Assembly: GCA_027621915.1 (NCBI GenBank)
Contig: JAQCAD010000007.1
Location: 1-64,000, forward strand
Direction of reading: 5' to 3'
Origin: Pseudomonadota bacterium
GTDB lineage: Bacteria > Pseudomonadota > Gammaproteobacteria > Steroidobacterales > Woeseiaceae
DNA: 64,000 nucleotides
Shown: positions 46,374 through 51,731 of the stretch, piece after piece
Position numbering within the stretch: position 1 is the first letter of the stretch
How the letters are laid out: each line of letters begins with the position of its first letter
Made by a program: the position numbers and the translations under genes
The notes under the pieces: model-generated
Databases searched by the model: none
The model's input: the letters and a program-made list of their open reading frames with translations, nothing else
What the model was told of the DNA's origin: nothing

Positions 46374-47954
46374 CTAATATTCCCGGGTTTCTCTGAACTC
46401 GATATCCGGCCAACGTTCCTCGGTCAATGCCAGATTGACTTTACTCGGAGCGATATACACGAGGCTGTCGCTATGGTCGAGCGCAAGATTATCATGCGCT
46501 TTTCGTTTGAATTCCTGCAGAATTTTTACATCGCTGGTTTCGACCCAGCGAGCCGTCGCGACGTTGATTGCTTCGAATTGGCACTCGACTTTGTACTCGT
46601 CTTTCAGACGGTGCGCGACAACATCAAATTGCAGCGGACCGACGGCACCGAGTATCAGGTCATTATTTCGCATCGGCTTGAACAGTTGCGTCGCTCCTTC
46701 CTCGCACAATTGAGCGAGTCCTTTTTGCAGCGCCTTTAGCTTCAGCGGATCCTTTAGTACCGCGCGTTGAAAAATTTCCGGCGCAAAACTTGGGATGCCT
46801 GAAAATTTAAGGTCTTCGCCCTCTGTAAAACTGTCCCCGATATTGATCGTGCCATGATTATGCAGGCCGATTATGTCGCCAGCGAACGCGGAATCGGCAT
46901 GCTGGCGATCTGCCGCCATGAAAGTAATCGCGTCTGCGATTTTCATTTCCTTGCCGGAGCGCATGTGTTTCAGGCGAATGCCTTTCTCGTACTCACCGGA
47001 ACAGATTCGCATGAACGCGATGCGATCGCGATGACCTGGATCCATGTTCGCCTGAATCTTGAAAATAAAACCCGTCATCTCTGCCTCATCCGCCTTCACG
47101 ATTCGCGTGCCGCTTTCTCTCGATCCCGGCGACGGTGCGTACTCGACAAATGCATCAAGTAGCTCACGCACGCCGAAATTTGAAATAGCGGAACCGAACA
47201 GAACAGGTGTCTGCTTCGCCGAAAGGTAGGAATCAACGTCAAGTTCCGGGCAGGCACCTTTAACCAGCGCGATTTCTTCACGAAACCGATCCGCATCATC
47301 ACCAAGAATTTCTGTGGCTTCCGCAGATTCCAGGCCATCAACCGATTCAATGATGGACGCTCTTTGCTTTCCCGAACTTGAATAAACGTAGATGCGATCC
47401 TCCAGAAGATGGTAAACGCCCTTTAACGCCCGACCCATACCGATTGGCCATGTCACGGGCGAACATTCAATGCCAAGCACTGTCTCGATTTCGTCCAGCA
47501 ACTCGACCGGCTCGCGACCCTCACGATCCAGTTTGTTTATGAAGGTCATAATCGGCGTGTCTCGGAGACGACACACTTCCATCAATTTGATAGTCCTTCG
47601 TTCAACACCCTTCGCGCAATCGATCACCATGAGCGCCGAATCCACCGCAGTCAGTGTCCGGTAGGTATCCTCGGAAAAATCTTCGTGTCCAGGCGTGTCG
47701 AGGAGATTTACCACCCGATCCCGGTACGGAAACTGCATTACCGAAGATGTTATCGAGATACCACGTTGCTGTTCGAGCGCCATCCAGTCGGACGTAGCGT
47801 GCCTTGTCGCCTTGCGCCCTTTTACCGTGCCGGCCATATTGATGGCACCACCGAAAAGCAACAGCTTTTCGGTGAGCGTTGTTTTGCCTGCATCGGGATG
47901 AGAAATAATGGCGAACGTGCGCCTCTTGCTCACTTCCTGCTGAATCGTCGACAT
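46374..47954 (-). CDS. prfC: Peptide chain release factor 3
   Basis: A 526-residue translational GTPase. G1 is [12 protein letters not shown], with the family's [16 protein letters not shown] switch I and [14 protein letters not shown]3 is [10 protein letters not shown]4 NKLD. The C-terminal domains ([30 protein letters not shown]) match RF3. RF3 removes RF1/RF2 from the ribosome after peptide release, and also takes part in quality control. Complete. Confidence 0.97.
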
Positions 47955-48016: not shown

Positions 48017-48496
48017 CTAGCCGGGATTCTTGTTTAATTGCTTAGAGAACACTGCAGCGTCTTCCCTGCCGTCGTTAGCCTGATAATAGGCAGGCCGGTA
48101 AGCGATATTGCGGAAACCCTTCTTCAGATAAAGGGCAATGGCTTTTTCGTTCGACGGGCGGACCTCAAGGAAAATTTCATTGACTCCATCCCGTCGCGCA
48201 GCGCTGAGAATGTCATCGAGAAGCCGCTCGCCGTATCCCAGTTCGCGATAAAGCGGGTCGATACACAGATTGAGAATATGCGCGTCACCCGCCGCAATCG
48301 AAAGCACACTGTAACCAACAACGGCGCCTTCACGCTCTACGACGGCGCAATGATATCCGGCCAGCAGGCAATCCCGGAAAACCCCATGACTCCAGGGAAA
48401 CTCATAGCTGCGACGCTCGATATCCGACACTTCCGCAACGTCATCGTGAATCATCTCCCTGGTATGTGCGGGTATTTCCCGGATCGGCGTGATCAT
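48017..48496 (-). CDS. rimI: Ribosomal protein S18 alanine N-acetyltransferase
   Basis: About 159 residues, starting at the ATG 48496 that overlaps the UDG stop (ATGA) rather than the upstream codon at 48544. A GNAT fold: VAEVSDIERRSYEFPWSHGVFRDCL at the start, ILNLCIDPLYRELGYGERLLDDIL with the acetyl-CoA loop (RxxGxG variant ELGYGE), and LEVRPSNEKAIALYLKKGFRNIAYRPAYY at the end. These are strong RimI features. Acetylates the N-terminal Ala of S18. Confidence 0.94.
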   Translation of the reverse strand: MITPIREIPAHTREMIHDDVAEVSDIERRSYEFPWSHGVFRDCLLAGYHCAVVEREGAVVGYSVLSIAAGDAHILNLCIDPLYRELGYGERLLDDILSAARRDGVNEIFLEVRPSNEKAIALYLKKGFRNIAYRPAYYQANDGREDAAVFSKQLNKNPG

Positions 48497-49191
48497 TCCC
48501 GTAGCTCTTCCATCACTTGACGCGCAAGACACAGATCCTGCCACGCTTTTCTTTTTTGGGTCGGGCTGCGAAGCAGATAGGCTGGATGATACGTCACGAT
48601 GACTGGTATCCGTCCAGTACCCAGTTGGTGTTTTTGGCCACGCAGGTTTCCCAGCGGGGCATCTGTATTCAGCAAACGCTGGGCGGCAATTCTTCCGACA
48701 GCGAGAATGATTTTCGGCGAGACGAGCTCTATCTGACGATCAAGATGGCTTCGGCAAGACGTCGCCTCATCATTCGCCGGATCCCTGTTGTTCGGCGGAC
48801 GGCACTTCAGGATATTGGCGATAAATACGGAATCGCGGGACAGATTAACTGCACGCAACATTTCATCCAGCAACTTCCCGGCGCGACCAACAAACGGTTC
48901 TCCCCGGCGATCTTCCTCGGCGCCGGGCGCCTCGCCAATGATCATCCAGTCGGCTAACTGGTTGCCGACACCAAAAACAGTCTGTGTGCGTGTTCGATGC
49001 AAAACACAGCGGGTGCAGGCAGCAACTTGCTGACGCAGTTCGCCCCAATCTGGTGCGCCGGAATCAGATGGATCCGCATCGGTCGAATCCTGACTGCCAT
49101 CAGGAAGACCGTGACCTCGCATTGTGTAGACGTCAATTTCGAGCGCTTTCAGGTAAGCGCGACGTCTGGCTTCTGCGGATGTCATTGGCAT
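48493..49191 (-). CDS. Uracil-DNA glycosylase, family 4 (Fe-S)
   Basis: A 232-residue enzyme. Motif A is [26 protein letters not shown], motif B HPAYLLR near the C terminus. Four cysteines for the 4Fe-4S cluster are seen: CTRC (about residue 58), and the pair in [19 protein letters not shown]. It removes uracil from DNA formed by cytosine deamination. Coupled with rimI by an ATGA overlap, a common arrangement. Confidence 0.94.
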
Positions 49192-49247: not shown

Positions 49248-49874
49248 TCACGGGTGAGGCAATTTCGCCAGCACATCCACGCCCGCGAATACCTTCTGGC
49301 CTTCCTTGACCAAAAGGCGGCTATTGATGGGCAATTGTACTTCGGCGATACGGGTCATGCGCAAATACGCACACCGCTGACCTTGCCCTATCCGATCGCC
49401 GTATCCAGGAAACGCCAGTGGCGCCAGACCGAACCGATGGCCGTGAAACTGGAGAACCACATCATCACCCTCATCAGTACGAACCCATAGGCCGCTGCAC
49501 GCCCCGACCTCAGCGCCATCAAGCAGGGTACCTCGAAAATCCATGATCTTTCCCTCGACCGGGCATCGGGCAGAGTATGCGCCCAGGCTTTTTACGCGAA
49601 TAAAAATCCTGTGCGCATCACCGCTCAATGCACCATTGGCAGTCAGGCTGACTTCAACAACCGTACCGTCAACGGGACTGACCACTCCGAGTGGGACTGC
49701 AGGAATAATCCTTCGGGGATCACGAAATACCAGTAACAGCCAGGCAAGAATAACGCCCGGTACAATTGCGTACTCGTACCCAATCAATTGCCAGCATGCG
49801 ACGGTGGCGACCAGCGCAAGAAACAGGAGTGGTATGCCCTCCTTGGCTACAAATGGAATACGCCTGCCCTTCAA
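49248..49874 (-). CDS. Phosphatidylserine decarboxylase-like membrane protein lacking catalytic residues
   Basis: A 208-residue protein with two N-terminal helices (about residues 12-30 and 34-50) and a PSD-type beta domain (VSPVDGTVVEVS, CPVEGKIMDFRG, VKEGQKVFAGVDVLAKL). This is the short PSD form also found in archaea and many bacteria. The Asp in SPVDG is kept, but where active relatives have D-V-H-V-N-R the sequence has L-G-A-Y-S-A-R, so the His is gone, and the FGS self-cleavage site near residue 183 reads as MTR in the best alignment. So it probably cannot form the pyruvoyl group and may be a pseudoenzyme or lipid-binding protein. Alone between the UDG gene and divergent proS. Confidence 0.7.
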   Translation of the reverse strand: MKGRRIPFVAKEGIPLLFLALVATVACWQLIGYEYAIVPGVILAWLLLVFRDPRRIIPAVPLGVVSPVDGTVVEVSLTANGALSGDAHRIFIRVKSLGAYSARCPVEGKIMDFRGTLLDGAEVGACSGLWVRTDEGDDVVLQFHGHRFGLAPLAFPGYGDRIGQGQRCAYLRMTRIAEVQLPINSRLLVKEGQKVFAGVDVLAKLPHP

Positions 49875-50006: not shown

Positions 50007-51731
50007 ATGCGTTTCACGAAGTTTGGACTAACTACTTTACGAGATACTCCCTCGGAAGCCGAAATTGTCAGCCACCAGCTGATGCTAAGAGCAGGCCTCA
50101 TCCGCCGACTTGCCTCAGGGCTGTTCACGTGGATGCCGATGGGGCTGCGAATCCTTCGTAAGGTCGAAACAATTATCCGTGAGGAGATGAATAAAGCCGG
50201 GGCGCTGGAGCTGCTGATGCCTGCGGTACAACCGGCAGAGTTATGGCAGGAGTCGGGACGATGGGATAAGTACGGCCATTTGCTGTTGCGCATGAAAGAT
50301 CGGCATGAACGCGAATATTGCTTCGGCCCGACACACGAAGAAGTCATTACCGATATCGCCAGACGCGAACTGCGTAGCTACAAACAACTGCCTGTTAATT
50401 TTTATCAGATCCAGACGAAGTTTCGCGACGAAATCAGGCCGCGCTTTGGCGTCATGCGAGCGCGTGAGTTTTCGATGAAAGATGCGTACTCCTTTCACGT
50501 CGATCAGGCTTCGCTCGAGGAAGGCTATCAAGTCATGCACGAGGCCTACACGGCGATATTCAACCGCCTCGGCCTCGAATTCCGTGTTGTTGACGCAGAC
50601 AGCGGCGAAATTGGTGGCAGCCGGTCACAAGAGTTCCACGTACTGGCCGATTCGGGTGAAGACGCGATTGCCTGGAGTGACGACGATGATTTCGCTTCCA
50701 ACGTTGAAACCGCCGCGACACTCCGACCGAATGGCAAACCTGCGGCACCGACACTGCAAATGGAAAGAATCAGTACACCGAACACGCGAACGATTGAGGA
50801 TCTGACGACGCTTTTGAAGGTCAATTCTTCACAAACGCTCAAGACATTGATCGTCGAGGGCGACGACCAACCTGTTGCGCTGATCCTGCGGGGTGATCAC
50901 GAACTCAATGCGATCAAAGCAGCCAGACTCGAAGGAGTCGCCGCGCCATTGACGATGGCGGACCCGGCGGCGATTCGTATGGCAACTGGTTGTGAACCTG
51001 GATTCGTTGGACCAATTGGCCTTGATATTCCGATTTATTTTGACCATGCAACCAGCGCGATGTCAGATTTCGTTTGCGGCGCAAACGAAATCGACACGCA
51101 CCTGACCGGAGTGAACTTCGGACGCGACATCGATACGCCGCAGACTGTCGACATCAGGAATGTTATTGAAGGCGATCCCAGCCCCGGTGGCAAAGGCACG
51201 CTCAGTATCGCCCGCGGTATAGAGGTCGGCCATATTTTCCAGCTGGGCACGGCCTATTCTGCGGCCATGAATGCAACAGTGCAGGACCAGGATGGTAAAG
51301 ATGTTGTGATGGCGATGGGCTGCTACGGAATCGGGGTAACTCGAATAATCGGCGCGGCCATCGAACAGAACCACGATGAGCGCGGCATCATCTGGCCGGA
51401 ACCACTGGCGCCTTTCGACGTTGTGCTGATACCGATCAATATGCACCGGTCCGATACATTGCGCGAAGCCGCGGAAGTGCTTTATACAGAACTCCAGGAA
51501 CGTGGCCTCGAAGTTCTCTTCGACGACCGCGACGCGAGGCCTGGTGTGAAGTTTGCCGATGCGGAATTGATCGGCATTCCACATCGACTCGTTATCAGCG
51601 ATAGAGGCCTCGAGGCCGGGGAGTTAGAGTATCGACATCGACGGGACGACGACTCGCGTGTGATGAAACGTGATGACGCTCTCAATTTGCTATTTGGGTC
51701 AACGTTAAAGTTACAATCCGCCGATTCCTGA
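50007..51731 (+). CDS. proS: Prolyl-tRNA synthetase (bacterial type)
   Basis: A 574-residue class II synthetase. Motif 1 is around [17 protein letters not shown], motif 2 around [25 protein letters not shown], and motif 3 around ATMGCYGIG-like [13 protein letters not shown]. An insertion (INS) editing domain occupies about residues 225-400, the mark of the long bacterial form, which clears Ala-tRNA-Pro. C-terminal anticodon-binding domain contains [21 protein letters not shown]. Complete. Confidence 0.97.

Follow-up and report, generated by a model that had tools for sequence, protein, structure and literature searches.

What is new in our analysis is a predicted pseudoenzyme clade within the phosphatidylserine decarboxylase (PSD) superfamily, one member of which, here called pseudo-PSD, lies in the window (the whole 64,000-nucleotide stretch of a Woeseiaceae contig that was analysed). 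This is not one odd gene: the clade is spread over the class Gammaproteobacteria and is tied to pssA through gene order, and no description of such a family was found in a search of an open-access library (subscription papers being outside its scope). Tentatively, in a reading that we place just short of probable, the protein would be a non-catalytic descendant of a short-type PS decarboxylase from the ilvI-ilvH-ilvC-psd-pssA operon that now assists or regulates the PS/PE branch.

A short-type decarboxylase homologue with its active site replaced

An earlier note on this DNA had placed a PSD-like protein without its active site at 49248-49874. The gene is there; that interval counts in the stop codon (49248-49250), and the strand, which had not been given, is minus. 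The features of the gene are as follows.

49251..49874, minus strand: pseudo-PSD gene encoding a 208-aa homologue of short-type PS decarboxylases that lacks the active site (ORF, PF02666, NF003680, profile comparison)
49872..49874, minus strand: TTG start codon, at a position common to 35/49 and 34/46 Woeseiales ORFs (two sets)
49728..49844, minus strand: pair of membrane helices near the N-terminus (residues 11-30 and 33-49; AlphaFold model)
49575..49577, minus strand: Tyr100, replacing the catalytic His (E. coli His144; ORF counts and profile comparisons)
49461..49478, minus strand: TDEGDD (residues 133-138), nearly invariant across the pseudo clade (class ORF conservation)
49380..49400, minus strand: G-D/E-R-x-G-Q-G (residues 159-165), nearly invariant across the pseudo clade (class ORF conservation)
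49350..49355, minus strand: Thr174-Arg175, replacing the Gly-Ser self-cleavage site (ORF counts, structure alignment, profile comparison)

The TTG start is credible, because the open frame runs to just 212 codons in total and the position is common to the 35 of 49 Woeseiales ORFs; retention of this rare start in most Woeseiales orthologues may reflect selection for low translation. Homology to the PF02666 superfamily is supported by a score of 23 bits, above the Pfam gathering cut-off of 22, by the profile comparison described below, and by a homologous fold (AlphaFold mean pLDDT 87, pTM 0.82). The blocks from which the fold had first been recognized, SPVDG (residues 66-70), CPVEG (104-108), and VKEGQKVFAG, are all present, and the register read from them was right. 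Specifically, comparison of profile A1 (49 Woeseiales sequences) with A2 (47 canonical short PSDs), at E 6e-44, sets canonical N-V-H against G-A-Y100 and canonical F-G-S against M-T174-R175, while comparison of A2 with A3 (30 long PSDs), at E 5.5e-13, puts the canonical short-PSD His on the first His of the long-type YHRVH, which is His144 in the E. coli numbering of PMC7952604. In structural alignment, residues 51-173 of the model match residues 69-252 in the beta chain of E. coli PSD, and the match stops where that enzyme is cleaved.

Tyr100 occurs in all 49 distinct Woeseiales ORFs and Gly-Ser at the cleavage site in 0 of the 49; together with the low dN/dS of close pairs (mostly 0.07-0.25), these counts establish that the replacements are neither chance nor error. 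Across the class, the catalytic His is absent from 98 of 100 distinct pseudo ORFs, as against its presence in 30/30 canonical short sequences. The Asp of SPxDG (E. coli Asp90) is kept, as Asp69 in the window, in 49/49 Woeseiales and in 89/100 class pseudo ORFs. That these proteins are still active decarboxylases working through unusual residues is scarcely credible. Gly-Ser does persist in 12/100 class pseudo ORFs and His in 2/100, and E. coli His144 mutants still show some late self-cleavage, according to PMC7952604; however, none of the 100 has both His and Gly-Ser, PMC7952604 also reports that the His144 mutants make no PE, the pocket is lost, and a canonical Psd is present in nearly all of the genomes concerned.

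Among known families, the closest is the short-type PS decarboxylase (PRK05305 group, NF003680/NF003678; PF02666), which has the same length, two N-terminal helices, FRDPxR, SPxDG, beta core, and operon place before pssA, whereas pseudo-PSD lacks its catalytic His, Gly-Ser, GxFxN, and NER loop. Against the short-PSD model NF003680 (cut-off 262 bits), the four pseudo members tried scored 82-151 bits (82.5 for the window protein) and an active relative scored 318; the window protein and the three other class members each fell below the cut-off of every NCBIfam model. The core fold is also homologous to that of the long-type Psd (TIGR00163), as in E. coli Psd (Z 7.6, rmsd 2.9, 114 residues; a canonical short PSD control model reached Z 12.7), but the long Psd is active, cleaves itself, and is encoded at another place in the genome. 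The top structural match of the pseudo-PSD model was EIIA-Glc (duplicated hybrid motif; Z 13.9, rmsd 3.0, 127 residues); we discarded this likeness as a hint of a regulator, since a canonical short PSD model matches equally (Z 14.4), making it a property of the PSD core. A PDB sequence search returned nothing credible for pseudo-PSD.

The earlier note had counted two catalytic positions lost with the fold and membrane helices kept. The fold and helices are indeed kept, but the losses go further. When the 100 class pseudo ORFs were compared with 49 canonical ORFs, the positions more than 85% conserved in the active enzymes and lost in the pseudo clade included, as examples, Ser91, Phe93, Asn95, Phe97, His100, Asn102, Tyr115, Gly118, Phe120, Asn122, Asn124-Glu125, Gln143, Ala145, Gly146, Leu147, Arg151, Ile152, Arg172, Ser175, and Arg176. 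The headgroup loop GxFxN is found in 49/49 canonical, 0/100 class pseudo, and 0/95 Woeseiales ORFs. By the A2-A3 register and counting from His144, its Asn aligns with E. coli Ser166, named as a phosphate contact in PMC7952604. The earlier note had floated lipid sensing or binding as a role; these losses disfavour it where the old pocket would be used, and other surfaces of the protein may bind lipid. More broadly, a sensor that binds PS or PE without conversion and reports its level would fit the retained helices and fold and a gene adjoining pssA, but given the loss of the headgroup loop and the canonical pocket residues we regard it as quite unlikely.

The pseudo clade has also gained near-invariant residues of its own: Glu107, Asp134-Glu135 (100/100), Asp137, Glu160, Arg161, Gly163, and Gln164, with G-x-R-x-G in 98/100 class pseudo ORFs. 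Conservation this strong could be taken to mean that the conserved polar residues D69, E107, D134, E135, E160, R161, and Q164 carry some other catalytic activity. Such a new enzyme is distinctly improbable: Asp134-Glu135 is already present in 4/19 active gammaproteobacterial relatives (and in 0/30 canonical sequences from the phylum sample), which dates part of these residues to before the catalytic loss; D69 is lost in 11/100 class pseudo ORFs; and no known enzyme with such an arrangement of residues was found.

Distribution, descent, and the second decarboxylase

Pseudo-PSD genes were found in the genomes of 56 of 99 relatives. An even sample of 369 class genomes yielded 122 with a match to A1, comprising 102 with a pseudo-PSD and 20 with a canonical short PSD, and 247 without any such gene. 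With identical ORFs merged before counting, these gave 119 distinct class ORFs, of which 19 have His and Gly-Ser, 98 lack His, and 2 have His without Gly-Ser. The missing His is replaced mostly by Tyr (59) or Phe (27). The 12 class members in which His is gone and Gly-Ser is retained (L138, L139, L144, L149, L160, and others) appear to be living intermediates in the birth of a pseudoenzyme. Neither the phages nor the defence library gave a match to pseudo-PSD, and 26 plasmid records matched, all below 60% identity (27-31% among the ten matches listed).

A 171-row tree was built without alternate Woeseiales rows, the entire genome_contigs group, rows shorter than 150 residues, and columns 100, 174, and 175. 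In it, a single branch (SH-aLRT 100) has all 123 pseudo rows on one side and all 48 canonical rows on the other. The tree is unrooted, and the rows from outside the class all lie on the canonical side. It requires three changes of His and 12 of Gly-Ser, for which the simplest account is that His disappeared a single time, reappearing twice in rows that lack Gly-Ser, and that Gly-Ser was lost many times thereafter. Two side observations concern single lineages. First, L146 (G360) carries an in-frame TAA and is a pseudogene or an assembly error. Second, in the window's own family (f1), the nine small genomes (1.1-2.0 Mb) of genus g5 (G015, G025, G029, G031, G033, G035, G037, G039, and G041) all lack the pseudoenzyme, and 6/9 show a long Psd.

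The check proposed in the earlier note was for relatives sharing the replacements and carrying a separate canonical psd. Both turned out as it had anticipated, in keeping with a pseudoenzyme: the relatives share Tyr100 and the missing Gly-Ser, and the genome of the window (G000; 3.56 Mb, 95% complete) encodes, apart from pseudo-PSD, a canonical long Psd that has HRVH and GST. A TIGR00163 match was obtained in 55 of the 56 pseudo-bearing relatives, the exception being G086 (G059 falls below the model cut-off). In the class sample, a separate strong PF02666 gene accompanies pseudo-PSD in 97/102 genomes, while 20/20 canonical-short genomes have a single PF02666 match each and hence no separate long Psd. 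Thus, the long Psd accompanies the dead short form and is missing where the short form is active. Neither PF02666 nor TIGR00163 revealed a long Psd in five draft pseudo-bearing genomes (G184, G337, G287, G313, and G411), which either have assembly gaps or make no PE by that route. These five are 93-98% complete, with pssA and the pseudoenzyme present, and G313 and G411 belong to one genus.

A dead homologue beside an active decarboxylase, as in G000 and the 97 class genomes, calls to mind the AdoMetDC prozyme of trypanosomatids, whose fold differs from the PSD fold. That prozyme is likewise a dead relative of a pyruvoyl-dependent decarboxylase kept beside the active enzyme and, in PMC5201418, is described as a paralogue that activates its partner; it differs from pseudo-PSD in being a paralogue of its own partner with activation proven. 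By analogy, pseudo-PSD might bind the canonical long Psd and promote its self-cleavage or activity. The co-occurrence counts in both samples favour this idea, which would also account for survival of the gene after the replacement of pssA described below. Nevertheless, we consider it unlikely, given the five genomes with no detected long Psd (two of one genus), the location of the long Psd elsewhere in the genome, its functioning without pseudo-PSD in most class genomes, and the distance between the short and long types.

Gene order, selection, and co-evolution with PssA

Gene order ties the family to pssA. The 100 distinct class pseudo ORFs have ilvC directly upstream in 96 cases and pssA directly downstream in 96, on the same strand; canonical short psd genes have ilvC upstream in 17/19 and pssA downstream in 15/19 class cases, and in 26/30 and 28/30, respectively, in the phylum sample (names of neighbouring genes were checked with NCBIfam on representatives). 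The window has a different set of neighbours, identified by gene order and NCBIfam.

50007..51731, plus strand: proS, divergent neighbour
48493..49191, minus strand: family 4 uracil-DNA glycosylase (udg), next downstream gene
48017..48544, minus strand: rimI
46374..47954, minus strand: prfC

Intermediate arrangements exist. Loci L048 and L050-L052 read proS(opposite)|ilvC-psd-pssA-udg, plus rimI where the contig reaches; L040, L041, L043, and L049 read proS|psd-pssA-udg-rimI-prfC; L047 reads proS|psd-pssA up to the contig limit; and the window and most Woeseiaceae read proS|psd-udg-rimI-prfC. The locus thus broke up stepwise, with ilvC and pssA gone in most Woeseiaceae and the pseudoenzyme retained. 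The pssA genes of G000 and seven other Woeseiaceae lie elsewhere and are of a distant type (8 rows on a branch of 6.88, SH-aLRT 100, in a PssA tree thinned by dropping alternate class_pseudo rows and two thirds of the 'short' rows, along with a few that were duplicated or lacked labels). This distant type (L319:5327-6136 in G000; L351-L357) replaces the ilv-operon PssA in most Woeseiaceae; in G000 it adjoins a putative aminotransferase-like gene, named from its sequence, and in L040 and L049, of the same family, the operon-type pssA still stands beside the pseudoenzyme. Since the pseudo-PSD gene survived the swap in most Woeseiaceae, the operon-type PssA cannot be its sole partner. Among 30 inspected pssA loci of genomes without pseudo-PSD, 14 have ilvC and pssA adjacent with nothing between, which, together with the 247 of 369 class genomes that lack the gene, marks its function as dispensable. 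Two further leads to a partner were dropped: pssA presence is uninformative as a discriminator, with a match in 361/369 class genomes, and the long upstream frames of L243, L271, and L273, considered as possible fusions, read as out-of-frame ilvC and have no match to a neighbour protein.

The gene is in use and under purifying selection. In Woeseiales, dN/dS for the 25 pairs with the smallest dS (0.07-0.92) was 0.07-0.25 in 24 cases and 0.52 in one, and the five closest class pairs gave 0.12-0.19; some divergent class pairs, whose proteins are very distant, exceeded 0.5 (up to 1.25), and the conclusion rests on the close pairs. A decaying relic that persists by chance in an essential operon might have been suspected from the repeated loss of Gly-Ser (the 12 changes on the tree) and from the absence of the gene from many genomes. 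We hold this to be very improbable, in view of the selection seen in close pairs, the new invariant residues, frames that are open almost everywhere (the one in-frame stop being that of G360), and a gene that outlived the departure of both operon neighbours.

Evolutionary distances of pseudo-PSD track those of PssA (partial r 0.58 given IlvC and 0.59 given IlvH), while the corresponding partial r values for IlvC and IlvH are 0.15 and 0.25. A LeuA control over 35 loci gave 0.47 against 0.54, about as strong, so the co-evolution signal of PssA is not specific. PssA as a partner would be favoured by gene order and the partial correlations and opposed by the LeuA control and by survival through the replacement of pssA.

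A candidate accessory of PS synthesis

Returning to the accessory or regulator reading, the sequences themselves show the following steps. In pseudo-bearing genomes, the canonical active site now resides in the long Psd. The short copy lost His, most simply once, and then Gly-Ser many times; it also shed the rest of its substrate pocket and gained new near-invariant residues, keeping its two membrane helices, its beta core, and its place adjoining pssA. At the inner membrane, the resulting protein may use a surface formed by TDEGDD and GERxGQG to dock on PssA, and perhaps also on the long Psd, thereby tuning PS synthesis or hand-over. In the Woeseiaceae, the role could have been kept with the new PssA type, or with Psd, after the operon pssA was swapped. 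Four observations weigh against an accessory role: the LeuA control, the pssA swap, the five genomes without a detected long Psd, and dispensability.

In most Gram-negative bacteria the main lipid is PE, and what keeps PS synthesis in balance when PssA is an integral membrane enzyme is, to our knowledge, poorly understood. A dead PSD that is conserved in more than a quarter of the class sample (102/369), mostly just before pssA, is a candidate for that balancing. It is possible, if doubtful, that this class-wide family arose a single time from an active PS decarboxylase, when another Psd type assumed its task, and now acts as a regulatory subunit dedicated to PS synthesis, a lipid-pathway counterpart of the trypanosome prozymes and a missing feedback element for integral-membrane PssA enzymes. 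Further, genes of the pseudo clade may carry the label 'phosphatidylserine decarboxylase' on the strength of homology, yet their products would not make PE. The family offers a clear case of the birth of a pseudoenzyme, in which intermediates that have lost His and kept Gly-Ser are still extant.
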